From Pseudomonadota bacterium (GTDB lineage: Bacteria > Pseudomonadota > Gammaproteobacteria > Acidiferrobacterales > UBA6901), in the NCBI GenBank assembly GCA_021819085.1, contig JAKASJ010000005.1, positions 62,001 to 126,000 of the forward strand: a DNA stretch of 64,000 nucleotides, written 5' to 3'. Positions 4,201 through 34,408 of this stretch are shown here, in pieces (positions within the stretch are counted from its first letter, which is position 1; every line of letters begins with the position of its first letter). The position numbers were made by a program, and so were the translations under genes. The notes under the pieces are model-generated. The model ran no database searches. It was given only the letters and a program-made list of their open reading frames with translations, and was not told where the DNA came from.

Positions 4201-5079
4201 ATGGTACGCAACGGGGTGCGTAAGCCGATCGGCAGAACCAGGGCCATGGTCTATGCGGTGCTGGTTCATGTGGTCATCATCGGTCTTTTGCTGCTGAGTT
4301 TTCGCTGGCACAGCGAGAACGACGTTATGCAGGCACCGAAGATGATCGAGGCGCACGTGGTGGATGCGACTGCGGCGAGTCGGGCGGCGCAAAAACTGAA
4401 ACAGCGGCTTGCGCAGCAGGAGCTGGCGCGGCAGAAGCAGCAGCTGCAGCAGCAGGAGTTGCGGCAGCAACAGCAGCTCAGACAGCAGCAGGCCCTGCAA
4501 CAGCAGCTCAGACAGCAGCAGCAGCAGCAGGCACTGCAACAGCAGCTCAGACAGCAGCTGGCGCTGGCGCGCGAGCGGCAACAGAAGCGCGAGGTGGAGC
4601 GCAAGGCGGCGGTTGCAGCCAAGCTGCGCGCCGCTGCCCTGGAGAAAGCGCGGCTGGCGGCCGTGAAAAAGCAGCAGCATCTGGCCGAAAAGCGGCGCAG
4701 ACAGCGGGCCATAGCCTCGCTTCAGCGGCAGCTGGCGGAGGAGCAGGCGCACCGGGCAGCGGCCGCGGCGGCCGCCGCGGCCGCTGCCAAGGCGCAAAGC
4801 GCCATCGCGCGCTATAAGGTGCTGATCCGCCAGAAGGTCGAGCAGAACTGGGTGCGGCCGCTTGACACCAGAAAGGGCATGAAGTGCGTGGTCAGGGTGA
4901 AACTGGTTCAGGGCGGCGACGTATTGGAGGCGGAAGTGGTGCAGTCGAGCGGTGACCCGGTATTTGATCGTTCGGTGGAGAATGCGGTATATAGGGCGTC
5001 GCCGCTACCCTTGCCGGATGACAGCACCTTGTTTCCCTATTTCCGAGAACTCGAGTTCACGTTCAAGCCGGAGTCCTGA
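4201..5079 (+). CDS. tolA: Tol-Pal system envelope-spanning protein TolA
   Basis: 292 residues with the three TolA domains. A membrane anchor lies near residues 15-37 (AMVYAVLVHVVIIGLLLLS). A long helical domain II, about residues 55-200, is extremely rich in Gln, Arg and Ala and ends in an Ala-rich run. C-terminal domain III begins near residue 205 with the IRQKVEQNWVRPL motif and a VRVKLVQGGDVLEAEVVQSSG strand region that contacts TolB and Pal. Domain II is unusually Gln-rich because of CAG-rich repeats. The stop overlaps the tolB start by one base. Confidence 0.95.
   Translation: MVRNGVRKPIGRTRAMVYAVLVHVVIIGLLLLSFRWHSENDVMQAPKMIEAHVVDATAASRAAQKLKQRLAQQELARQKQQLQQQELRQQQQLRQQQALQQQLRQQQQQQALQQQLRQQLALARERQQKREVERKAAVAAKLRAAALEKARLAAVKKQQHLAEKRRRQRAIASLQRQLAEEQAHRAAAAAAAAAAAKAQSAIARYKVLIRQKVEQNWVRPLDTRKGMKCVVRVKLVQGGDVLEAEVVQSSGDPVFDRSVENAVYRASPLPLPDDSTLFPYFRELEFTFKPES
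4467..4557 (+). repeat. CAG-rich tandem repeats inside tolA
   Basis: A unit close to AACAGCAGCTCAGACAGCAG occurs three times (near 4469, 4499 and 4538), separated by further CAG triplets. It encodes the LRQQ/LQQQ heptad-like stretches of TolA domain II. Such repeats are prone to slippage, so the length of domain II may vary between strains. Confidence 0.85.
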
Positions 5080-10929: not shown

Positions 10930-11005
10930 GGGCCGTTAGCTCAGCCGGTAGAGCAGCTGGCTTTTAACCAGTTGGTCGACAGTTCGAATCTGTCACGGCC
11001 CACCA
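10930..11005 (+). tRNA. tRNA-Lys (anticodon TTT)
   Basis: 76 bases with CCA encoded. The acceptor stem GGGCCGT pairs with ACGGCCC, the D-loop carries AGCTCAGCCGGTAGAGC, the anticodon loop is CTTTTAA with TTT at the centre, and the T-loop is GTTCGAATC. Its 3' half is repeated at 12,224, which marks it as an integration site for tyrosine-recombinase islands. Confidence 0.97.
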
Positions 11006-11344: not shown

Positions 11345-11752
11345 CTATTCCCAGGGATTGGTGACGGGGACACCGAAGCGGCGGAAATCCGCCTCATTGC
11401 GGGTTGCCACGGTCAGACCGTGGACGTGGGCCGTGGCCGCGATAAGTCCATCGACCACAGGAAGGGATTGCTTGCTGGTTCCGCGACGCGTACCCCAGAC
11501 AACTGCCACCGGCAGGTCCACGGCGAGCAGCCGGCCGGCGAACCGATCCGGAAGGGCGCGTCGCACCCATGTCAGGAGTTGGGTGCGTTTCTCGCCATCC
11601 GGCAGGGCTGCCACGCCTTCCTCGATTTCACCGATAGTGATGACGCAGAGATAGAGATCGGCTTCGCGCTGCGCATCGATCCAAGCTATTACCCGTGCTG
11701 CTGGCCTGGCTTTGACCAGCTCGGAGATGACGCAGGTGTCGAGCAGGAACAC
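11345..11752 (-). CDS. PIN-domain toxin (VapC/FitB-like)
   Basis: 135 residues beginning with a GTG. PIN ribonuclease features: MFLLDTCVISELVK with the first acidic residue, the GEIEEGVAAL Glu, DGLIAATAHVHG with the third acidic residue, and TRNEADFRRFG at the end. Type II toxins of this family cleave RNA, often tRNA. It follows the antitoxin gene by one base in the same direction, so the pair is an operon. With the integrase relic it is the only cargo of the 1.2-kb tRNA-Lys island, where it may act as an addiction module. Confidence 0.9.
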   Translation of the reverse strand: MFLLDTCVISELVKARPAARVIAWIDAQREADLYLCVITIGEIEEGVAALPDGEKRTQLLTWVRRALPDRFAGRLLAVDLPVAVVWGTRRGTSKQSLPVVDGLIAATAHVHGLTVATRNEADFRRFGVPVTNPWE

Positions 11753-11753
11753 G

Positions 11754-12008
11754 CTAGAGCCGTACGCGCGGGCGGCCGGTGTCCTTCACGCGGCGTACTT
11801 TGAGCCGCGTGCCGGCCAGCGGTGAGTGCCGGAAGAACTCGGTCAGGGTTTCGGGCGGCTGCGACAGCTCGCGGAATTTTTCCACCGAGACCACCACGGC
11901 GGCCGGCGCGCCATGCACGGTGATGGTTTGCGGGCCGTGGCGGCGCGCCTCGGCCACCACGCGCGAAAGCTGGTTTTTTGCGTCCTGGAGTTGCCACCGC
12001 TTACCCAT
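11754..12008 (-). CDS. Phd/YefM-family antitoxin
   Basis: 84 residues from the ATG at 12,008 (a TTG two codons upstream is also in frame). The WQLQDAKNQLSRVVAEARRHGPQTITVHG stretch is the N-terminal DNA-binding fold of Phd/YefM antitoxins, followed by AVVVSVEKFREL. The basic C-terminal tail (LKVRRVKDTGRPRVRL) would wrap the toxin. It precedes the PIN toxin in one operon, and a nested palindrome just upstream is a likely autoregulatory operator. Confidence 0.9.
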   Translation of the reverse strand: MGKRWQLQDAKNQLSRVVAEARRHGPQTITVHGAPAAVVVSVEKFRELSQPPETLTEFFRHSPLAGTRLKVRRVKDTGRPRVRL

Positions 12009-12024
12009 AGTCAACCTCGATAAT

Positions 12025-12223: not shown

Positions 12224-12273
12224 CTTTTAACCAGTTGGTCGACAGTTCGAATCTGTCACGGCCCACCAATTAA
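12224..12273 (+). repeat. att repeat, distal copy of the tRNA-Lys 3' end
   Basis: Exact 50-base copy of 10,961-11,010. It closes a 1.2-kb island (integrase relic plus Phd/PIN pair). A second integrase relic starts two bases after it, so at least two islands integrated in tandem here. Confidence 0.92.
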
Positions 12274-12274
12274 C

Positions 12275-12493
12275 TCAGGTAGTTACCGCATCATCAGCAG
12301 AGTGCTGGTCAGGCGACTTTGCCAATTTTTTGCCAGCAACCACCCGAAGTCGCGGGAGATTGTCGGCAAACTCAGCCAGGTGGCTGGCACCGAGATGGGT
12401 GTATCGCAGGACCATCTCCAGCGTCTTCCATCCGCCGAGCTGCTGCAGGACAGGCAAAGGGGTTCCGGACTGCACGTGCCATGAAACCCACGT
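12275..12493 (-). pseudogene. Island integrase, C-terminal part, split by RIT element
   Basis: The minus-strand frame reads TWVSWHVQSGTPLPVLQQLGGW, then TLEMVLRYTHLGASHL with the catalytic Tyr, and ends just before the att copy. It begins exactly at the Arg-His codons of the H-x-x-R-H motif, where a 7-kb element enters. The preceding residues (FRWHDLRH) lie on the far side of the element at 19,487-19,546. Apart from the insertion, the C-terminal region is intact. Confidence 0.9.
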
Positions 12494-12527
12494 GTGGCGG
12501 CTATTCCGATATCGGAATAGCCGCCAC
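12494..12527. repeat. Perfect 34-bp palindrome at the ritA end of the outer RIT
   Basis: GTGGCGGCTATTCCGAT is followed directly by its exact reverse complement. The last seven bases, CCGCCAC, are also the tip of the terminal inverted repeat. The ritC end (19,487-19,493) has only the seven-base tip. The inner RIT has a related palindrome in the same relative position. Confidence 0.95.
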
Positions 12528-12612
12528 TATGCCGCATTGGAAACTATGCCGAGTTGAGTTTCCTGCGCCTGTTGTTTGACGGGTTTGCGTTGTTCTGACT
12601 CGGCATAGTTTC
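12521..12612 (+). repeat. Outer RIT terminal inverted repeat, left
   Basis: 92 bp matching 19,402-19,493 in inverted orientation with one mismatch (C/T at 12,534). Within it GAAACTATGCCGAGT and its inverse ACTCGGCATAGTTTC sit about 45 bases apart, so each terminal repeat is itself hairpin-like and could present paired recombinase-binding sites. Confidence 0.93.
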
Positions 12613-12646
12613 ATGTCTTCTCCCTTATCGATAACAAGGAGCAGAC

Positions 12647-13888
12647 ATGAGCACCGAGGCATTGTTTACCTTCCGCAGCACGGTCGATCGCATGCGCCAA
12701 GGTCCACTGGGATCCTATGTCGATGCGTATGCCGCGCGGTTGCAGGAGCAAGGTTATTCGGAGGAGTCGACCCGCACACAGATTCGATGCGTCGCCGACT
12801 TCAGCCGCTGGCTTAAGCGCCGTGGGCTTGCGGCCGACGATGTCGACGATCAGACGCTTACGCGTTTCCTGAAGTATCGTCAACGGCACCGCCATCTCAC
12901 CCGCAGCGATGCCTCGGCGTTACAGAAGTTGCTGGCACTGTTGCGCGAACGGCACATCGCCAGGCCCATGCCGGTTCAGTGTCACCTCAATCCGCTGGCC
13001 CGGATTGAGCGCAACTTTGAACGCTGCCTCACGCAGGAACGGGGACGGTCACGATCCACCCTCCTCAACTACCAGCCCTTCATCCGGCAGTTTCTGCAGG
13101 AGCGATTTCAGGGGGGCGCGATTCGTCTTGCGGCGCTTACGGCGGCCGATGTCATGGCGTTCGTGCAACGCCACGCACGCGACTACGGCGTGAAACGCAC
13201 CAAACTCATGCCGACGGCGCTGCGTGCCTTTCTGCGGTTTCTGCACCTGCGCGGAGACATCGTCTGCGATCTTGCCGCCGCCGTTCCCACGGTCGCCTGC
13301 TGGTCGTTTGCGACACTGCCGAAGTTTCTCGCGCGGGGAGACGTGCAGCGGGTGCTCACCGCTTGCCGCCGAGATAGCCGGGTGGGTCGGCGCAATTACG
13401 CGATCCTGCAGCTGCTCGCCCGCCTGGGTCTTCGTGCCGGGGAGATCGTGACGTTGACGCTCGAGGACATCGACTGGGAGGCCGCCCGTATCCGGCTTCA
13501 CAGCAAATGCCAACGCCTCGATGAGCTTCCATTGCCCGACCCCGTCGGTCGCGCGATTGCCGAGTATTTGCGACACGGACGGCCCCGTTGCCCGGACCGT
13601 CGGCTCTTTATTCGGGAGCGCGCGCCGATCCAAGGGTTTGCCAATGCCAGTGCCGTGTCAACGGTGGTTCGCCGCGCCCTGGCGCGCGCCGGCATTGAGA
13701 GCACGCACAAAGGGGCACATGTGTTTAGGCACACGCTCGCCACCGAGATGCTCGCGCACGGCGCCTCGCTCCACGAGATCGGGCAGCTGCTGCGCCATCA
13801 GAACCCAGAGACGACCATGATCTACGCCAAGGTCGATGTGGCGGCCTTGCGCCACCTGGCGCCACCCTGGCCGAAGGAGATGCTATGA
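12647..13888 (+). CDS. ritA: RIT tyrosine recombinase RitA (outer element)
   Basis: 413 residues. The N-terminal SAM-like core-binding region (residues 30-230) precedes a tyrosine recombinase catalytic domain. Active-site parts are visible: Arg I in GLRAGEIVTLTLEDI, the H-x-x-R box HVFRHTLATEML, the second His in IGQLLRHQNPETT and the catalytic Tyr in MIYAKVD. A ribosome site AAGGAG precedes the ATG by seven bases. The stop overlaps the ritB start as ATGA. In RIT elements the three recombinases are thought to act together in site-specific transposition. Confidence 0.93.
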   Translation: MSTEALFTFRSTVDRMRQGPLGSYVDAYAARLQEQGYSEESTRTQIRCVADFSRWLKRRGLAADDVDDQTLTRFLKYRQRHRHLTRSDASALQKLLALLRERHIARPMPVQCHLNPLARIERNFERCLTQERGRSRSTLLNYQPFIRQFLQERFQGGAIRLAALTAADVMAFVQRHARDYGVKRTKLMPTALRAFLRFLHLRGDIVCDLAAAVPTVACWSFATLPKFLARGDVQRVLTACRRDSRVGRRNYAILQLLARLGLRAGEIVTLTLEDIDWEAARIRLHSKCQRLDELPLPDPVGRAIAEYLRHGRPRCPDRRLFIRERAPIQGFANASAVSTVVRRALARAGIESTHKGAHVFRHTLATEMLAHGASLHEIGQLLRHQNPETTMIYAKVDVAALRHLAPPWPKEML

Positions 13889-14628
13889 ACACCCTGCGAG
13901 AAGCGATCGATGACTATCTCATGATGCGCCGTGCCTTGGGCTTCAAACTCACCCGTGTGGGAGGGAAGCTTAAGCACTTTGCGGATTTCCTGGAAAGCCA
14001 CGGCGCCGACACGATCACCACGTTGTTGGCCCGGCAATGGGCGATGCAGCCGCCCGAGGCGAAGCCGGCCACATGGGCCGAGCGTCTGATGCACGTGCGC
14101 GTCTTTGCGCATTATCGTCAAGCGGCCGATCCGCGCACCGAGATCCCGCCGGCCGGGCTGCTGCCCTTTCGGGCAGAACGTGCCAAACCCCATTTTTATA
14201 GCGAGGCGGAGATTCACCGGCTGCTGGCGGCGGCCGAAGCTCTGCCACCGAAAGACGGCCTGAGGGGAGCAACTTACCATTGCCTGTTCGGTCTGCTGGT
14301 GGTGACGGGAATGCGTATCAGCGAGGTGCTTGCCTTGAAGCATGATGACGTCGATCTTACGCAAGGGATACTCATCGTTCGGGGCGCGAAGTTCGATAAG
14401 TCGCGTCTACTGCCGCTGCATCGCTCGACCCAACAGGTACTGGTGGAGTACGCGCGTAAACGCGATGCCCGGTTTCCCCGTCCCACCACCCCGCACTTCT
14501 TGGTCTCGGACGGCGGGCGGCCCTTGGAAGGCTCCACCGTGCGGCGCACGTTCTACGCGCTCTCGCGCGCGATCGGGTTGCGCGGTGCCGACGATTCCTA
14601 TGGTCCCCGGCTACACGATTTTCGCCAT
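13885..14628 (+). pseudogene. ritB: RitB of outer RIT, 5' part, split by the inner RIT
   Basis: Encodes the first 248 residues of a RitB-type tyrosine recombinase, with Arg I in GMRISEVLALKHDDVDL. It ends exactly at the codons HDFRH, the H-x-x-R-H active-site motif. The remaining 62 codons resume at 18,211 with RFARETLVRWYR, and joining the halves gives an uninterrupted 310-residue protein. The gene is therefore intact except for the insertion. A short read-through of about 26 residues into the inner element ends at 14,709. Confidence 0.93.
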
Positions 14629-14744
14629 TATTCCGCCACCCGGATTATTCCGGCAACGGGTGAGCGACGCGCGTATTTCCCGGGGAATCGCGTGATCGCA
14701 GGCGCATGATGGGCGGAATAATCAGAGGGAGTTCAGGAAGGCCA
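14623..14744 (+). repeat. Inner RIT terminal inverted repeat, left (ritC end)
   Basis: 122 bp, the exact inverse of 18,061-18,182 as read by eye. It contains spaced TTATTCCG motifs, CGGATTATTCCGGCAAC, and the inverse motif GGCGGAATAATC. The end of ritC (codons for FLNSL and the stop) lies inside this repeat. The identity of the two ends suggests recent movement. Confidence 0.93.
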
Positions 14745-15723
14745 ACACACGATCACTGGGCCGGTAGCGAGAAGCGCGGGCCGGGTGGGTGGCCGCGGTC
14801 TTCGCCAGCGCCTGTTCTTTAAGCTGCATGTCGGCCTGCAGGTAAATCGAGGTCGTTTCCACCGACTCGTGGCCCAGCCACAGCGCGATGACGGAGGTGC
14901 CAACGCCGTGGTGAAGCAGGTTCATCGCGAGTGAGTGGCGCAAGGAATGGAGCGTGATGCGCTTTTGGGTCAACGAGGGGCAGTGACGGCGGGCGACGGC
15001 CAGATGTTTGTTCAGCAGGTATTCCAAGCCGTCATGACCCAAGGCCTGGCCCCGCGTGGTGGGGAAGACCGGATCGGAGGGTTGGCCCTGGCGTTCCCGT
15101 AGCCAGCTCCGTAGGACCGTGACGGTCTCTTGGCGAAGCGGGGTGCACCGTGTCTTGCGTCCTTTGCCCAAGCACTGTACGTGCGCCCCGGCGCCGAAGA
15201 CGATGTTCTCGCAGCACAAGCCGGTGAGTTCTGCCGCTCGCAGTCCCGTCTCGACAGCGAGCAGCAACAGGGCCCGATCGCGCCGTCCGCTCCAGGTCGT
15301 GAGGTCGGGTGCGGCGAGCAGAGCATCGACTTCGGCCGGTATCAGGAAACAGGTCGGTCGACGTATATAGCGTTTACTGGGCATCGCGAGCACACGCGCA
15401 GCCACAGCGTTGTACTCCGGCGCGTGCAAGGCAACGTAGCGGAAGAAGGAATGGATGGCGGCGAGACGCACGTTGCGACTGCGGGCGCTGTTGTCGCGTT
15501 TTTGCTCAAGGTGATCGAGGAACGCGCCAATAAACGCCGCATCCAAGTCGGACACCGCCAGCGCCGAGGGCGCTTTGCGCAGTCGCTGTTGTGCATACTG
15601 CAGCAGCAGGCGAAAGGTATCGCGATAGCTGGCAATGGTGTGGGGACTGGCCTGCCGCTGTCGCATCAGCCGATCCATGAAGAATGACTCCAACAGCGCG
15701 GGAAAGGGGCTGGCTCCGTTCAT
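14722..15723 (-). CDS. ritC: RIT tyrosine recombinase RitC (inner element)
   Basis: 333 residues starting at MNGASPFPALLE. The start overlaps the ritB stop as ATGA, which decides it over longer in-frame extensions. The core-binding region carries RQASPHTIASYRDTFRLLLQ. Catalytic residues: Arg in GLRAAELTGL, H-x-x-R in LHSLRHSLAMNLL, the second His in WLGHESVETTSIYL, with the Tyr in that last segment. The final residues lie inside the terminal repeat. Its Arg-His is encoded CGC CAC, so this gene itself contains a potential RIT target. Confidence 0.93.
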   Translation of the reverse strand: MNGASPFPALLESFFMDRLMRQRQASPHTIASYRDTFRLLLQYAQQRLRKAPSALAVSDLDAAFIGAFLDHLEQKRDNSARSRNVRLAAIHSFFRYVALHAPEYNAVAARVLAMPSKRYIRRPTCFLIPAEVDALLAAPDLTTWSGRRDRALLLLAVETGLRAAELTGLCCENIVFGAGAHVQCLGKGRKTRCTPLRQETVTVLRSWLRERQGQPSDPVFPTTRGQALGHDGLEYLLNKHLAVARRHCPSLTQKRITLHSLRHSLAMNLLHHGVGTSVIALWLGHESVETTSIYLQADMQLKEQALAKTAATHPARASRYRPSDRVLAFLNSL

Positions 15724-16655
15724 AGACGGGTCCTCCGCTCGGATCGCTCCACCCGGTTGAGCGCGTAGCGCAACAACTGCGGCGTCGCCGTCAAATACCA
15801 CTGCGTGTCGGTAATATGGGCATGCCCCAAATAGGTGGAAAGCTCAGGCAGATGACGCTCGACATCGACCCCATGTCGATACCACTTGAGAAGCGTATGG
15901 ATCGCTAGCCGGTGACGGAACCCGTGCAGACGGGGTCCCTGCGAGTCACCGGGACCGCGCAGGCCGCTCTGGTGAGACAGTTTGACGAACGTCCACCGCA
16001 GCGTGTCATACGTCACGCCGTTGCCGCGATCGGAGAGGAAAAAACGGGGACTGCCGGGGGAGCGGCACAAGCGATCCCGAATCTTGGCATAGCGTTGCAA
16101 AGCGCGTTGCGTGGAACGGTGCACGGGGACGTATCGGGTCTTGCCGAACTTGGTATCCCGAATCGTCAGCACGCCGTGGATGAGGTCCACATCGTCCCGA
16201 TCCAGATGCAAGGCCTCGTTAGCCCGCAGACCGGTGGCGACGTACAGCCCCAAGAGCGTGGCAAAGGTGTGCGGTCGCAAGCCGATCGCGGAGGGCAGCC
16301 GCCGTGCCGCCTTGAGCAGCCGGAGGATCTCCTCGTCACTGGCGATATGGGGTGCCACCCGCCGGTACGGGTGGGGGAGCAGATCAGGCGGCGGCACCAC
16401 GGTGCGCGGATCATTGGGAAGGCAGTACCGCGCGAAACGACGCACCATCCCTAAGCGGTTGGCCCACTGGGACGGCTGGGCGTGGGCCGGTTGGGTGGCC
16501 CACCTCAAGGCCAGTTCGGTGGTGATGTACTCGGCGCCCGCGCGTTCGGCGAAGTCGACGAATCGCCGCAACAGTCGTCCTTCCAGGCGCAGCTTGTATC
16601 CCAGAGCGCGACGCACGGCGAGATACTCATCGAACGCGGTTCGTAATGCGCTCAT
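15720..16655 (-). CDS. ritB: RIT tyrosine recombinase RitB (inner element)
   Basis: 311 residues from MSALRTAFDEYLAVRRALGYKL. The ATG overlaps the ritA stop, and longer upstream extensions in frame are unlikely. Active-site parts: GLRANEALHLDRDDVDL, LHGFRHRLAIHTLL and TYLGHAHITDTQWYL. Its similarity to the outer RitB is clear along the whole length but the sequences differ considerably, so the two elements are not recent copies. Here Arg-His is encoded CGT CAC rather than the CGC CAY used as a target. Confidence 0.93.
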   Translation of the reverse strand: MSALRTAFDEYLAVRRALGYKLRLEGRLLRRFVDFAERAGAEYITTELALRWATQPAHAQPSQWANRLGMVRRFARYCLPNDPRTVVPPPDLLPHPYRRVAPHIASDEEILRLLKAARRLPSAIGLRPHTFATLLGLYVATGLRANEALHLDRDDVDLIHGVLTIRDTKFGKTRYVPVHRSTQRALQRYAKIRDRLCRSPGSPRFFLSDRGNGVTYDTLRWTFVKLSHQSGLRGPGDSQGPRLHGFRHRLAIHTLLKWYRHGVDVERHLPELSTYLGHAHITDTQWYLTATPQLLRYALNRVERSERRTRL

Positions 16656-17884
16656 GACGCACCTCCCATCCACGGCAGAGCAATGTGACGCAGCGCCTTG
16701 ATGTCGACCTTGGCATAGATCTGCGTCGTCGTGGGCTGCCGGTGACGCAACAGTTGACCGATCTCGGTGAGCGAGGCGCCACGGCGCAGCATGGTGGTGG
16801 CCAGAGAATGTCTCAACAAATGGGCCCCTTTGAAGTCGGGGTTCAATCCAGTGCGCTTGAGGGCGCGACGAACCACACAGCAAATGGCGCTTAAGCAAAG
16901 GCCGTGCCACGGAGCGTTCATTCGGATAAAGACCGTGCGCGTCGAACACGCAGGACGAACGTGGCGCAGATAGCGGACCAATGCCTCGCCTACGTCTTTC
17001 GGCAACGGTAATCGTTCCCATCGCTGACCTTTTCCGCGCACAATGATCTCGCCGCGCTCCCAGTCCAGGTCGTCCAAGGTCATGGCGAGTACTTCTCCAC
17101 CGCGCAACCCGAGTCGAGCCAAGAGCATCAAGATCGCATAATCACGCTGACCGCACGGCGTGCGGCGATCGCAGCAGCGAAGCAGTCGCTCGACCTGTTC
17201 GGGCGGGAGCGACTTGGGGAGGTGCGACAACCGCCAGCGAGCCACCCCGAATAGGGCGCCAGCCAGGTCCGTTTTGATCGCGCCGCGCTGGCGCAGAAAG
17301 CGCAGAAACGAGCGTAGCGCGGTGACCGTGGTGCCGGCATGAGTGCGGCTGACGCGCCGCACTTGACGAAGAATGAAGCGATGCAGATCCCGTGGTTGCA
17401 AATCCTGAAGGCGCAAGGCCTGGCCCCCGAAGTGCTCGGTCAAAAACCGTCGCACGATGGGTAGATAGCCCATCACCGTCGTGTGGGCCAAGCCGCGCTC
17501 AGAGCTCAGGAATCTCTCATAATCTCGTATGAGCCGATCCAAGGCAGTCCGGTCTATGGTTTGCGGTAACGCAGGGATCACCCCGAGGCCGCGTAAAAAC
17601 GCCAGCAGTTGATGGCCCGTAGAGGCATCGCCGCGCCTCATTGACCGGCGATGGTCGGCGTCAAACTGTGCGAGCGTCGCCTCGTCCAGTTTGGCGAGCG
17701 ACAATCGGCGCTGCTTCAACCAGCGGCTGAGATCCGCTGTCAGCAAACACTTGGTCTTTATCGTCGCCGGAACGTACCCCTCGCCGGCGAGGAACTCCGC
17801 AAATCTATCGATGTAAGTGGCGATTGGCCCAGCGCACACAGGTTTGATTGATATCGCTACAGCACTCTTGCGATCGATCTTCAT
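16652..17884 (-). CDS. ritA: RIT tyrosine recombinase RitA (inner element)
   Basis: 410 residues from MKIDRKSAVAISIK; GAGGAG about seven bases upstream favours this ATG over one five codons earlier. The core-binding part carries GYVPATIKTKCLLTADLSRWL. The catalytic part has GLRGGEVLAMTLDDLDW, HLLRHSLATTMLRRG, IGQLLRHRQPTTTQIYAKVD with the Tyr. It is the first gene of the inner trio; the stop overlaps ritB. About 175 bp between it and the right terminal repeat hold no other gene and probably contain the promoter. Confidence 0.93.
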   Translation of the reverse strand: MKIDRKSAVAISIKPVCAGPIATYIDRFAEFLAGEGYVPATIKTKCLLTADLSRWLKQRRLSLAKLDEATLAQFDADHRRSMRRGDASTGHQLLAFLRGLGVIPALPQTIDRTALDRLIRDYERFLSSERGLAHTTVMGYLPIVRRFLTEHFGGQALRLQDLQPRDLHRFILRQVRRVSRTHAGTTVTALRSFLRFLRQRGAIKTDLAGALFGVARWRLSHLPKSLPPEQVERLLRCCDRRTPCGQRDYAILMLLARLGLRGGEVLAMTLDDLDWERGEIIVRGKGQRWERLPLPKDVGEALVRYLRHVRPACSTRTVFIRMNAPWHGLCLSAICCVVRRALKRTGLNPDFKGAHLLRHSLATTMLRRGASLTEIGQLLRHRQPTTTQIYAKVDIKALRHIALPWMGGAS

Positions 17885-18060
17885 CGTCCGTCTCCTCAAA
17901 GCTGGGGGAAGATCCCCAACCGGAGACGAGAGTCGAACTCAAGAGCGATTGCAACATCGAGATCGGAATCGACTCTGTATGCTCGGCCCATGAATTCACG
18001 GCATTACGGCATCATTCATTTCGTGACGGTCCCTTCACTACCGCCCTATCGGCCGTGTTC

Positions 18061-18182
18061 TGGCCTTCCTGAACTCCCTCTGATTATTCCGCCCATCATG
18101 CGCCTGCGATCACGCGATTCCCCGGGAAATACGCGCGTCGCTCACCCGTTGCCGGAATAATCCGGGTGGCGGAATAATGGCG
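18061..18182 (-). repeat. Inner RIT terminal inverted repeat, right (ritA end)
   Basis: 122 bp, the exact inverse of 14,623-14,744. It runs into the 34-bp palindrome that starts at 18,177. Confidence 0.93.
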
Positions 18183-18210
18183 GTAATTCCGCCGGCGGAA
18201 TTACCGCCAT
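18177..18210. repeat. Perfect 34-bp palindrome at the ritA end of the inner RIT
   Basis: ATGGCGGTAATTCCGCC is followed by its exact reverse complement. Compared with the outer palindrome, 12 of 17 half-site positions agree, as the blocks TGGCGG and ATTCCG. The terminal variable base (T here, C in the outer) matches the His codon of the target in each case. Confidence 0.95.
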
Positions 18211-18399
18211 CGGTTTGCCCGGGAGACGCTGGTGCGCTGGTACCGCGCGGGCGAGGAGGTCGAGCGTCGATTGCCGGTGCTATCGACCTATCTGGGCCAT
18301 GCCCACGTGAGCGACACCTACTGGTACTTATCGGCCTGCCCCGAGTTGATGGGGGAGGCCAGACGGCGGCTCGAGAAACGCTGGGAGGGGTACCCATGA
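18205..18399 (+). pseudogene. ritB: RitB of outer RIT, 3' part
   Basis: Continues the interrupted ritB frame: RHRFARETLVRWYRAG, then LPVLSTYLGHAHVSDTYWYL with the second catalytic His and Tyr. The stop overlaps the outer ritC start as ATGA. On its own it has no start signal. Confidence 0.92.
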
Positions 18400-19394
18400 G
18401 CACCAGCGCCAGCCTTGCTCCGTTGCTTGAGCGCTTCTTCACGCAACGGCTGATGCGTGAGCGCCAGGTGAGTCCGCATACGATCGTCGCCTATCGCGAC
18501 ACCTTCCGTCTGCTACTCGCGTTCGCCAAGCAACAGCTGGATAAACCGCCATCGCGATTGCAGCTCACCGATCTCGACGCGCCGCTGATCGGCGCCTTTC
18601 TCGATGATCTTGAGAAGCACCGTCACGTGAGCGCCCGCACGCGCAATCTGCGCCTGACCGCCATCCGTTCGTTCTTCCATTATGCGCAATTTGAGGCGCC
18701 GCAACATAGTGCGCACATTCAGCGCGTGCTCGCCATCCCCGGTCAACGCCCTACGCGCCGCGTGGTAGGGTTCTTAACGCGCGAGGAGATCGAGGCGTTG
18801 TTGGCAGCCCCCGATCGAGGTTCCTGGGGCGGGCGGCGCGATTATGCGTTTTTGACACTTGCCCTGCAGGCGGGGCTGCGGGTGGCGGAGATGACGAACC
18901 TAAAACAGGAGGATCTCGTCTTCGGTGTCGGTGCGCACGTGCGCGCGTACGGAAAGGGTCGCAAGGAGCGCTGTACGCCCTTGACGCGTCAGTGTGCCGC
19001 CGTGCTGAAGGGGTGGTTGACCGAGGTCGTGCACGCCGGCGGTGAGATTCTCTTCCCGAGCGCCCGCGGCGGGCGATTGAGTTCGGATGCGGTACAGTAT
19101 CTGCTGGCCAAGCAAGTGGCGGTGGCGGCTGAACGCTGCCCGTCGCTGGCAGCAAAACGCGTCACGCCGCATGTGCTGAGGCACAGCGCCGCCATGGAGC
19201 TACTTCAGGCAGGGGTCGATATCACGGTCATTGCCCTTTGGTTAGGCCATGAATCGATAAAAACCACGCAGATCTATTTGGACGCTCATCTGGCGTTGAA
19301 AGAGGCTGCGCTCGCCAAGACGAAACCCTTTGGCGGAGCGGCCACGCGATATCGGCCCCCGGATTCCCTTATGGGGTTCCTCAAGAGCCTGTAG
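18396..19394 (+). CDS. ritC: RIT tyrosine recombinase RitC (outer element)
   Basis: 332 residues from MSTSASLAPLLERFFTQRL. Catalytic parts: GLRVAEMTNLKQEDLVF, HVLRHSAAMELLQAG, and WLGHESIKTTQIYL with the nucleophilic Tyr. It is similar to the inner RitC throughout. The inner RIT now separates it from its promoter and from the 5' part of ritB, so expression and coupled translation are probably lost. Arg-His is encoded AGG CAC here, not the target sequence. Confidence 0.92.
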   Translation: MSTSASLAPLLERFFTQRLMRERQVSPHTIVAYRDTFRLLLAFAKQQLDKPPSRLQLTDLDAPLIGAFLDDLEKHRHVSARTRNLRLTAIRSFFHYAQFEAPQHSAHIQRVLAIPGQRPTRRVVGFLTREEIEALLAAPDRGSWGGRRDYAFLTLALQAGLRVAEMTNLKQEDLVFGVGAHVRAYGKGRKERCTPLTRQCAAVLKGWLTEVVHAGGEILFPSARGGRLSSDAVQYLLAKQVAVAAERCPSLAAKRVTPHVLRHSAAMELLQAGVDITVIALWLGHESIKTTQIYLDAHLALKEAALAKTKPFGGAATRYRPPDSLMGFLKSL

Positions 19395-19401
19395 CCAACC
19401 G

Positions 19402-19493
19402 GAAACTATGCCGAGTCAGAACAACGCAAACCCGTCAAACAACAGGCGCAGGAAACTCAACTCGGCATAGTTTCCAATACGGCATAGTGGCGG
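19402..19493 (-). repeat. Outer RIT terminal inverted repeat, right (ritC end)
   Basis: 92 bp, inverse of 12,521-12,612 with one mismatch. It ends in GTGGCGG and meets the integrase codons for HDL directly, with no palindrome at this end. Confidence 0.93.
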
Positions 19494-19546
19494 AGGTCAT
19501 GCCAACGAAAGTTGGTGATGCCCGCGCTGTTGAATTGCGCCCGAAA
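19487..19546 (-). pseudogene. Island integrase, fragment ending at the HxxRH motif
   Basis: On the minus strand the codons read FNSAGITNFRWHDLRH and then meet the outer RIT. The next codons of the same gene (RHTWVSWHVQSG) are at 12,493 on the other side. Only about 20 family-like residues are left here; the rest of the N-terminal part is missing or too diverged to recognise. Confidence 0.85.
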
Positions 19547-19700
19547 TTGATCCAATTTCAGGCTGTTTTTGCATCGAACAGTGACCAATCCCGATCCGTA
19601 ATATCACCGACGGTATCAGCGTGTTAGGACCGAATTGCTGGGTCAATGCGAAATGCAAACTCCAGGTCAATTATGGACGCAATTCAGCAAGGTAGGTTAT

Positions 19701-19717: not shown

Positions 19718-19759
19718 AGTTTCAGCTAGACTGGGTTTATCCGCTATGAGGATATGACC

Positions 19760-20008
19760 ATGGCCATCCTGCACGTCCGTAACATTCCCGACAAACTCTA
19801 CAGGCGCATTCAGAAGCTCGCCGAGGAAGAAAATCGATCCCTCACGGCTGAGGTGATCCAGCTTTTGGATCAGGGCCTCAAGACGCGTGAGGCGCGCCGG
19901 GGTGCCGCTGCGGTCGTGGCACGTATCCGCCGCCAGGCCGAAAAAGTCGAATTGCCCAAAGGCTGGACCGACGCCGCGGAACTGATTCGTGAGGACCGCC
20001 GCCGGTGA
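19760..20008 (+). CDS. FitA-like ribbon-helix-helix antitoxin
   Basis: 82 residues. MAILHVRNIPDKLYRRIQKLAEEENRSLTAEVIQLL is a typical FitA/VapB ribbon-helix-helix domain. The C-terminal half is charged, as expected for a toxin-wrapping tail. Of two ATGs (19,754 and 19,760), the second is better spaced from GAGG. The stop overlaps the toxin GTG start (GTGA), so the two genes are coupled. Confidence 0.9.
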   Translation: MAILHVRNIPDKLYRRIQKLAEEENRSLTAEVIQLLDQGLKTREARRGAAAVVARIRRQAEKVELPKGWTDAAELIREDRRR

Positions 20009-20460
20009 ATTCGACCCCGCTGCGCGCGGTTATGGATGCGAGTGTTGCCGTCAAGGTGTTCGTGCCGGAATTGCACTCCGCTGAGGCGCGCGCGATTCTG
20101 GAGCGATTCACGCAGGAGGAGGACGCTGAACTCGTGGTGCCCGATCTTTTTTTTATCGAGTGCGCAAACGTGTTCTGGAAATGGGTGCAGCGGTCAGGTT
20201 ATCCATCCCAGGATGTACAGGAGCACCTCCATGACCTAGGGGGCCTCGGCTTTACGGTGCTACCTACCCAGTTTCTGGCCGAGGATGCCTTGGAGGTTGC
20301 ACTGAGGCACAAAGTCACAGCCTACGATGCCTGTTACATCGCGGCAGCTGCGAAACTCGGGTTGCCGCTCATTACGGCAGACGAAAAGCTGGTGAAGCGG
20401 GTTGATAAGCGCAGGTACGATATTCAGTGGCTGGGCAGCATGCCGCTGATGAAGGGGTGA
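20005..20460 (+). CDS. PIN-domain toxin (VapC family)
   Basis: 151 residues with a GTG start. PIN residues: VMDASVAVKVFVPE (Asp), LFFIECANVFWKW (Glu), VTAYDACYIAAAAKLGLPLITADEKL (two Asp). It forms a toxin-antitoxin pair with the overlapping upstream antitoxin and probably acts as a ribonuclease. It sits just outside the RIT insertion, in a zone with several other toxin-antitoxin genes and relics. Confidence 0.9.
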   Translation: MNSTPLRAVMDASVAVKVFVPELHSAEARAILERFTQEEDAELVVPDLFFIECANVFWKWVQRSGYPSQDVQEHLHDLGGLGFTVLPTQFLAEDALEVALRHKVTAYDACYIAAAAKLGLPLITADEKLVKRVDKRRYDIQWLGSMPLMKG

Positions 20461-32355: not shown

Positions 32356-34344
32356 TCATAGGGACGGCCGGTCACGTCGACCACGGCAAGACGGCGCTCA
32401 TCAAGGCGCTCACCGGCGTGGATGCCGACCGCCTCAAGGAGGAAAAGGCGCGTGGCATCAGGATCGACCTCGGTTTTGCGTATTGTGCATTGCCGGATGG
32501 CGGGGTGCTTGGCTTCGTCGATGTCCCCGGACACGAGCGTTTCGTGCACAACATGCTCGCCGGAGCGACCGGTATCGATTGCGTGCTGCTGCTGGTGGCC
32601 GCTGACGACGGCGTAATGCCGCAGACCCGGGAGCATCTCGAAATCATCGATCTCCTCGGAATCTCCAGCGGCGTGGTTGCGATCAGCAAGATCGATCGCG
32701 TCGATGCCGCGCGCGTGGCGCAGGTCGAGCGCGATGTCCGCATGCTGCTCGGCCACACGCGCCTCTCGGGAAGCCCGGTTTTCGCGCTGGCCAGCGTGAC
32801 CGGAGATGGCATTGAGCCGCTGCGCAGGCACCTGGCGCACCGTGCGTTGCAATCCGCCGTGCGGCGCACCGACGCCTATTTCAGGCTGGCCGTCGACCGG
32901 TCGTTCACGCTTGCCGGCGTCGGCACTGTCGTCACCGGTACGGTGTTCGCAGGTCGCGTGCGGGTGGGGGACCGGCTGCTGGTATCGCCGTCCGGGGTAG
33001 AGGTTAGGGTGCGCGCCCTGCATGCGCAGAACCGCGAGTCTGAAACCGGTGAGGCCGGTCAGCGCTGCGCGCTCAACCTGACAGGAATCGAAAAAAAAGG
33101 ATGTCGTACGCGGCGACTGGTTGGTCGCTGCGCCACTGCACCGGCCGTGCCAGCGCTTTGATGCCCGCATCCAGGTTGCGCACTCGGCTGGCAGATCGCT
33201 GAGGCATTGGGCTGGCGTGCATGTGCATCTGGGTGCCGCGGACGTCGCGGCGAGCGTATCGGTGATCGGCGGGGCGGGCCTGGAGCCGGGCCGCGACGGG
33301 CTCGTGCGGATCGTGCTCGCAAGGCCGGCCGGCGTACTGCACGGGGACCGTTTCATTCTGCGGGATCAGTCGGCGCGCGCCACGTTGGCCGGCGGGGTGG
33401 TGGTGCAGCCGTTTGCGCCGGCGCACCGGGTGCGCACGCCGCAGCGCCTCGCGTTGCTTGGCGCGCTGGAACGCGATCCACCGCGCGCAGCCCTGGCCTC
33501 GCTTCTCGACATATCGACGTGCGGGGTGGATCTCGATGCGTTTGCCTGTGCCCGCAACCTGTTGCCCGATGCGATGCAGTCGATGCTGGACGACCTGGCG
33601 GTGACCACGGTTCCGACGGCTGCTAGCGGACCTGTCGGCTTCGCGCCGGCGCGCTGGGCCGCGTTGAAACAGGCGGTGCTGGAGCAGGTGGCCGCCGAGC
33701 ACCGCAGTGCTCCGGAACTGCTCGGCATCCAGGCCCGGCCGCTGCGCCGCAGGGTAGACGCGCAGCTCCACTGGGAGGTCTTTCTGGCCCTCGTTGAAGC
33801 GCTGTGTTCGGAGAAGCGCCTGGCGCGGCGCGGGCCTTGGCTGCACCTGCCCGGACACCGCATCCTGCTGACGGCTTCAGACGAGAAGTTGTGGCGCGCG
33901 GCCGTGCCGCTTATTCGCGCAACGCTTTTTCAGCCACCATGGGTGCGCGACCTGGCAGGGGTGCTTGGGGTGCCGGAGGTCCGGGTGCGGGCGCTGATGC
34001 AGCGTGTGGCCGTGCTGGGTGACGTCTACGAAGTGGTGCACGATCGATTTTTCCTGCGCGAAGCGCTATCGCGCATCATCGCGATCGCCGCGCAGATCGC
34101 AGCTGAGAGCGGGGTGGTGCGGGCCGCAGACCTGCGTGACCGGATCGGAACCGGGCGCCGGCTCGCCATCCAGATTCTCGAGTACCTGGACAGGACTGGT
34201 ACCGCGCGTCGCGTCGGTGACGCACATCGCCTGCGCATTACGGAGCTGCTGGTCGACGGGCCGGCGGTGCGCAGCGGGGATCGGCCGGGCGTGCCGGGAT
34301 CACTGGACAATGGAAGAGATACGCACCCCGGTGGGGCGACTTGA
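32352..34344 (+). pseudogene. selB: Selenocysteine-specific elongation factor SelB, frameshifted at an A8 run
   Basis: The first frame carries the GTPase domain: [47 protein letters not shown], and EF-Tu-like domain 2 up to CALNLTGIEKK. At 33,091-33,098 eight A residues shift the frame. With one A fewer, the next frame reads DVVRGDWLVAAPLHRPCQRF and continues to the winged-helix domains that bind SECIS RNA (LFQPPWVRDLAGVLGVPE, LRDRIGTGRRLAIQILEYLDRTG). The joined length, about 660 residues, is normal. It may be inactivated, read by slippage, or a sequencing error. The 3' end overlaps tRNA-Sec by 33 bases. Confidence 0.88.
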
Positions 34345-34408
34345 CTTCAAATCAGGTAGGGACCGTCAGTCGGCCCCTGGTGGGTTCGACTCCCGCTCTC
34401 TTCCGCCA
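34312..34408 (+). tRNA. selC: tRNA-Sec (anticodon TCA)
   Basis: 97 bases. The acceptor stem GGAAGAGA pairs over eight bp with TCTCTTCC, then G and CCA. The anticodon loop is CTTCAAA with TCA, the long variable arm GGGACCG/CGGCCCC has one mismatch, and the T-loop is GTTCGACTC. The eight-bp acceptor stem and long arm are diagnostic. It lies at the end of selB, as in many selAB-selC loci. Confidence 0.93.

Follow-up and report, generated by a model that had tools for sequence, protein, structure and literature searches.

Nested RIT elements in a gammaproteobacterial contig and a lineage-specific insertion preference for the Arg-His codons of tyrosine recombinase genes

The DNA analyzed here is a 64-kb window (64,000 nucleotides, contig JAKASJ010000005.1, positions 62,001 to 126,000) from an Acidiferrobacterales bacterium. 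It contains two complete trios of tyrosine recombinase (TR) genes, one nested inside the other, which we identify as RIT elements and whose insertion sites are the subject of this analysis. Published RITs consist of three adjacent, slightly overlapping TR genes, ritA-ritB-ritC, within ~3.5 kb, and a palindrome overlaps their terminal inverted repeats (PMC3414803). The outer trio is on the plus strand, within a minus-strand integrase remnant, and comprises ritA (12647-13888, 413 aa), an interrupted ritB and ritC (18396-19394, 332 aa). The 5' part of the outer ritB (13885-14627) is split after HDF(R-H), and the 3' part (18210-18399, RHRFARETL...) is in frame with it. The inner trio lies on the minus strand within the outer ritB and comprises ritA (16652-17899, 415 aa), ritB (15720-16655, 311 aa) and ritC (14722-15723, 333 aa). 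All six genes match TR profiles, and in each element the three genes are adjacent on the same strand in the order A-B-C, with ATGA-type overlaps; the identity of each rit gene was taken from protein length and similarity to other trios. The inner element spans 14628-18177 and the outer 12527-19487 minus the inner, so that both are ~3.4-3.5 kb with terminal inverted repeats. The two RitC proteins share 56% identity.

Each element splits a TR gene at the HxxRH box. The clean junction of the inner element (14622-14627) reads GAT TT[T CGC CA]T, encoding HDFRH of the outer RitB, and the opposite flank restarts at 18210; joining the flanks yields a stop-free RitB of 310 aa. The outer element splits a 5'-truncated integrase of a tRNA-Lys island at HDL|RH, with the clean junction at 19488-19493 (HDLRH on the minus strand) and the opposite flank, RHTWVSWHV, running from 12494 to a stop at 12275. 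A Pfam PF00589 match spans the join of the outer target (E 2e-11), and a genome of the same order contains an unsplit homologue with 81% identity across the join. The tRNA-Lys gene at 10930-11005 has its 3' end directly repeated over 45 bp at 12224-12268 (plus strand), an island attachment-site copy that supports the assignment to a tRNA-Lys island. A first-pass annotation of this DNA had proposed two nested RITs, each in the HxxRH box of a TR, with CGCCAY at every junction and a full 310-residue RitB after joining the inner flanks. Flank joining confirms the arrangement and the restored RitB, and CGCCAY is found at each junction of both elements. The continuous integrase frame also claimed for the outer target holds locally, across the join, but the target is a C-terminal remnant whose frame upstream of HDLRH (19494-19601, minus strand) reads open for ~36 codons only.

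The ends of the two elements share a common anatomy, in which the terminal inverted repeats border on a single clean spacer of 6 bp on one side and on a spacer-20-bp palindrome-spacer arrangement on the other. Both window elements have long terminal inverted repeats starting YTATKCCG, meet the target through a single spacer on the ritC side and carry the palindrome on the ritA side. For the outer element, the inverted repeats have arms of ~86 bp (12527-12612 on the ritA side and 19402-19487 on the ritC side; 27/28 matches). Its clean spacer, CCGCCA on the coding strand, occupies 19488-19493 (minus strand) in the target codons L-R-H, and its palindromic end (12495-12526) is composed of spacer TGGCGG (12495-12500), palindrome CTATTCCGATATCGGAATAG (12501-12520) and spacer CCGCCA (12521-12526). 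The inner inverted repeats (14628-14741 on the ritC side, 18064-18177 on the ritA side) form part of a 119-bp inverted repeat when the spacer is counted. The inner clean spacer, TCGCCA, occupies 14622-14627 (plus strand) in the outer ritB codons F-R-H at the ritC end, and the palindromic end (18178-18209) consists of spacer TGGCGG (18178-18183), palindrome TAATTCCGCCGGCGGAATTA (18184-18203) and spacer CCGCCA (18204-18209). Perfect palindromes of 34 bp, absent from the first-pass annotation, occur at the two ritA ends, at 12494-12527 (outer) and 18177-18210 (inner), and only three of that length exist in the whole window.

A broader collection of RITs was assembled by RitC-based searches of genome contigs, viral contigs, plasmids and taxon-based genome samples, which returned ~190 RIT loci. 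Ends were assigned with a geometry-based finder, giving 75 non-redundant insertions with resolved ends; it replaced simple inverted-repeat alignment, which misplaced ends where repeats were long or palindromes imperfect. Automatic end calls at L018, L026, L031, L039, L046, L075 minus and L174 were corrected or excluded. The spacer-palindrome-spacer anatomy recurs throughout the surveyed RITs, with arms of the form YTATGCCGnnnnCGGCATAR. The set of TR insertions was made up of 25 automatically resolved insertions within or beside a match to a TR hidden Markov model, together with the outer element of the window; removal of L026 (a weak match), L046 (wrongly ended) and L075 minus (a degenerate overlapping element) left 23.

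The junction falls at the R-H codons, in phase 2, in 22 of the 23 TR insertions, including L041 and L160, which have one intact flank only; the count is 23/25 when the doubtful L026 and L075 minus are included. The spacer begins at the third base of the residue that precedes Arg in the HxxRH box. The lone exception, L070, interrupts a RitB at FGK, the motif of the catalytic Lys. The same HxxRH box was seen by reading in six more loci (L018, L023, L031, L039, L056 and L091). There are 20 distinct targets, mutually <70% identical around the junction, which include RitB, RitC, two integron integrases (L037 and L085, both exceeding the NCBIfam cut-off for this family), other TRs and the tRNA-island integrase, and PF00589 matches span the joined flanks. 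The HxxRH site preference is thus supported by about two dozen independent insertions made by diverse RITs of the window lineage. In nearly all targets the catalytic Tyr is 32 residues past the split His. The target enzyme is always broken because this Tyr is severed from the rest of the protein, and insertion into a TR is predicted in effect to disable it.

The orientation of TR insertions is coupled to the position of the palindrome. Antisense insertions have the palindrome at the ritA end (12/12) and sense insertions at the ritC end (11/11), a coupling of 23/23 that always leaves the palindromic end 3' of the split codons. The first-pass annotation proposed a fixed antisense orientation in which the HD(L/F) side receives the ritC end. 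This is rejected: both orientations are used equally, and what is fixed is the palindromic end 3' of the target codons. Two pairs of identical elements illustrate the coupling. In one Burkholderia genome, two identical 3419-bp elements (L019 and L020) have entered identical copies of one target, facing opposite ways, and their palindromes lie at opposite ends. The pattern repeats in two different ArdC genes, which carry identical 3475-bp elements (L198 and L199); identical copies at different sites would imply transposition. A genome of the same genus as the window organism (G055) contains an outer-like RIT, 98.8% identical, in a different integrase (RHTWASWHV) and in the opposite orientation, with the same 20-bp palindrome, CTATTCCGATATCGGAATAG, at its other end and the spacer GAGGCA (AGG CAC), so the palindrome travels with the element. 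An inner-like RIT in G055 (96.5%) abuts, on its clean side, the same codons of a different ritB, and its palindromic side is rearranged. A plasmid RIT from outside the original sample (L242) is also a TR insertion and obeys both rules.

G055 also contains an element-free spacer-palindrome-spacer (L159, contig C134, ~1050-1110; spacers TGTCGA/TCGACA) at which the 3' halves of two different ritB genes meet head to head, each at its R-H codons. This suggests that both palindrome spacers are active and able to cause inversions, or that the contig is rearranged or misassembled.

At TR targets the spacers follow the pattern N-(CGN/AGR)-CA, or NMGNCA, which is any Arg codon followed by His; CGCCAY, the criterion of the first-pass annotation, is not the rule. 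The spacer at the present target fits NMGNCA in 22/22 cases, by definition of the class, but the two spacers within the element, which were not chosen for fitting, also match in 21/23 (e1) and 22/23 (e2) cases, against a chance expectation of 0.8% per spacer. Six Arg codons are used (CGG, AGG, CGC, CGT, CGA and AGA), and the element spacers often differ from the present target at synonymous positions only. They appear to have been captured from earlier Arg-His targets. NMGNCA is present in 469/469 HxxRH boxes, making the box a universal candidate. A longer DNA consensus was sought by comparing targeted with untargeted boxes, which revealed only weak differences, T at +5 (80% vs 38%) and slight shifts at -5 and -4, all confounded by relatedness.

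The Arg-His rule is specific to one large RIT lineage and does not describe RITs in general. TR insertions account for 18/~33 of those among the nearest relatives of the outer RIT but 2/23 of the resolved insertions in the taxon-based sample. Other RIT lineages split IS66 genes, at TAKLNG, GRKNWLF, DNNxxEN and DDFGGY of TnpC and at DFRKG and DPFxGD of TnpB, IS21 genes, at QVDWG and YDN of IstA and the Walker A motif of IstB, and genes for ArdC-type zincins at HExxH. Further targets are SRAP at MCNLYS, DUF3489 proteins at GWQxHTVRG, TrbI and a helicase. These non-TR targets are backed by Pfam in part; both IstA targets and some others have no Pfam hit and were assigned by motif reading only. 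Target class follows the RitC phylogeny: on the RitC tree it requires 20 changes, the minimum for 21 classes, vs 44.6 in shuffles (minimum 40), and TR Arg-His targeting vs the rest requires 7 changes vs 23.3 (minimum 17). Ten further plasmid RITs comprise one in a TR (L242), two in IS66, one in ArdC, one in an unidentified target and five without resolvable ends, and the annotation of a plasmid record splits an ArdC-type gene around the RIT, consistent with ArdC targeting. An uninterrupted IS66 copy was sought as an empty site in genome G014 and was not found. Measured against these data, the check proposed in the first-pass annotation, namely to collect RITs, join their flanks and look for a TR broken at HxxRH with CGCCAY at the junctions and antisense orientation, is borne out for HxxRH within TR insertions but not for CGCCAY, for orientation or for RITs generally, and the site preference it inferred stands for the window lineage.

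In addition, a RIT in the window organism's own genome (L016, contig C21, 344-3902) is in IS66 TnpC at an AVGRKRW motif, and the RITs L122-L127 and L147, from viral contigs and one genome, all split DUF3489 proteins at GWQxHTVRG.

Both window elements very probably belong to a large RIT lineage whose members insert where other TRs encode their catalytic Arg-His pair, using strand exchange of the TR type. From the anatomy, the exact target codons, the coupling rule, the use of both orientations, the spacer composition and the lineage conservation of the target, all read from the sequence, we infer a circular intermediate and strand exchange at the spacers. The circular form would carry an orientation-neutral attachment site, IR(ritC)-spacer-20-bp palindrome-spacer-IR(ritA), where IR is the inverted repeat. 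Each 6-bp spacer, reading N-(Arg codon)-CA, would be flanked by inverted arms (CGGCATAR...YTATGCCG) in the manner of a TR core site, and either could recombine with the 6 bp of the target HxxRH box, T-[N MGN CA]-Y. The inverted repeat beside the recombining spacer would then lie against the target's 5' half, and the palindrome against its 3' half. As the two spacers are inverted copies, insertion could occur in either orientation with the palindrome always on the 3' side. Partial spacer mismatch would be tolerated, which would allow spacers to keep Arg-His spellings unlike those of the present target. Target choice would be encoded by the Rit proteins plus the spacers.

Several observations weigh against this proposal. 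No circular junction was seen, and the case is built on sequence. The outer target has no uninterrupted twin, only the 81% identical homologue, and L160 displays R-H on one flank only. The presence of NMGNCA in every HxxRH box means that the spacer alone does not explain the choice among boxes. Target classes outside TRs were assigned partly by eye. Inverted repeats are lacking at ~50 trio loci, and a palindrome at the exact geometry at ~54; contig edges or diverged lineages account for many of these loci, though not for all. Finally, L015, in the window organism's genome (contig C46, 394-3815), has Arg-His element spacers (GCGGCA) and a clean junction off the R-H codon, and is possibly an off-target insertion or has a degraded end. 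RITs of G014 with the same palindrome as L015 are in IS66 TnpC at DNNATEN.

If RITs inserted nearly anywhere in GC-rich mobile DNA, the window pair would share CGCCAY by chance, and the 2/23 count does place most RITs outside TRs. However, chance is negligible when 22/23 TR insertions fall on the same codon pair and phase, one position in a ~1-kb gene, and when the element spacers spell Arg-His and the target class is conserved along the RitC tree; we reject coincidence on these grounds and assign it a vanishingly small probability. Nesting driven by local homology, with RITs recombining at related attachment sites and the R-H position a by-product, would suit the many targets that are RitB or RitC of other RITs. 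It is very improbable, and was rejected largely because at least nine targets are not Rit proteins (the IntI-like L037 and L085, the TRs at L019, L033, L043, L054, L084 and L094, and the island integrase split by the outer element); the junctions, moreover, are inside coding sequence, away from RIT termini.

A different question is why Arg-His codons should be the target. It is likely that the preference is purely one for DNA, T-NMGNCA-Y plus flanking bases, with the protein motif merely keeping that DNA common and no selection for disabling competitors. Recombinases read DNA, the wobble positions of the spacers vary, targeted boxes differ slightly from untargeted boxes at the flanking positions given above, and the motifs used by other lineages (DUF3489, TrbI) are just as conserved but unrelated in function. 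This account is compatible with integration by strand exchange at Arg-His codons, differing only in its evolutionary reading, and nothing that we found contradicts it. The view of the first-pass annotation, in which the preference would have evolved to knock out rival recombinases, appears doubtful. In its favor, each insertion into a TR cuts the catalytic Tyr off from the remainder of the protein, and other lineages also strike catalytic motifs of IS66, IS21 and ArdC, but the non-recombinase targets (DUF3489, SRAP, TrbI and the helicase) indicate that conservation and abundance on mobile DNA suffice. A safe, abundant and mobile landing site accounts for the data equally well. On balance we lean towards a generalization in which RITs as a class home to the codons of conserved, often catalytic, motifs. 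The spacer pair of each lineage would mirror the codons of one motif (TR Arg-His; IS66 TAK, GRK, DNNxxE and DDFGGY; IS21 QVDWG and YDN; IstB/AAA Walker A; ArdC HExxH) and serve as a fossil record of past targets. Over time, lineages would move from one motif to another, and TR Arg-His would be the basal one for a large clade.

The published RITs (Van Houdt 2009/2012) share gene order, size, inverted repeats and palindrome with the window elements, and reported insertions are in radC, IS66 tnpA and a Tn6049-like transposase gene (PMC3414803, PMC2864759). RITs, their inverted repeats and the overlapping palindrome are thus already known; in the literature searched, the coverage of which excluded the main RIT paper (Ricker 2013), we found no description of the TR Arg-His target, the double spacer of the spacer-palindrome-spacer site or the coupling of palindrome and orientation. 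RIT target specificity is entered as not tested in a 2023 comparison table (PMC10214605). The closest experimental parallel for 6-bp spacers that move between sites is provided by strand-biased circularizing elements (SEs) and Tn554, which are TR-driven and target-specific and in which the 6-bp spacer is a footprint or fingerprint carried between insertion sites (PMC10214605). Gene content differs, being IntA-Tfp-IntB-Srap in SEs and TnpA-TnpB-TnpC in Tn554, whereas the RITs here have three TRs, a 20-bp palindrome and a double spacer, and no fourth, accessory gene (Srap or TnpC) is present between the inverted repeats of the window RITs. GInts likewise contain several TR genes, and the end of one conserved gene, ssb, is the common target of unrelated members (PMC5385486). 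Unlike RITs, they have four genes, form larger islands and target a gene end that is usually not destroyed; in the window there is no four-gene ginABCD module at an island end, only three genes directly flanked by element ends. Inteins and homing introns are also parasites whose universal landing site is the most conserved coding motif. They remove themselves from the product, whereas a RIT destroys the gene it enters and appears to rely on TR integration for its movement rather than on nuclease homing.

The questions of how RITs move and how they select targets date back to 2009, and the rule makes both directly testable by supplying exact element ends, a predicted circular junction and a 6-bp core. 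It lets the target be predicted for any genome that contains an HxxRH box, integron integrases included. RITs of this lineage would be transposons that exploit conserved active-site DNA as a universal attachment site, with the most conserved codons of other mobile elements as landing pads, and their spacers offer a sequence-based record of an element's past locations.

Elsewhere in the window, the third 34-bp perfect palindrome, at 4755-4788 (GGCAGCGGCCGCGGCGGCC...), is very GC-rich and apparently unrelated to RITs. VapBC-like toxin-antitoxin pairs lie on either side of the RIT pair, at 11345-12014 (minus strand) and 19754-20460 (plus strand), one of them inside the tRNA-Lys island. The window organism probably uses selenocysteine, since a tRNA-SeC gene with anticodon TCA is present at 34312-34408.

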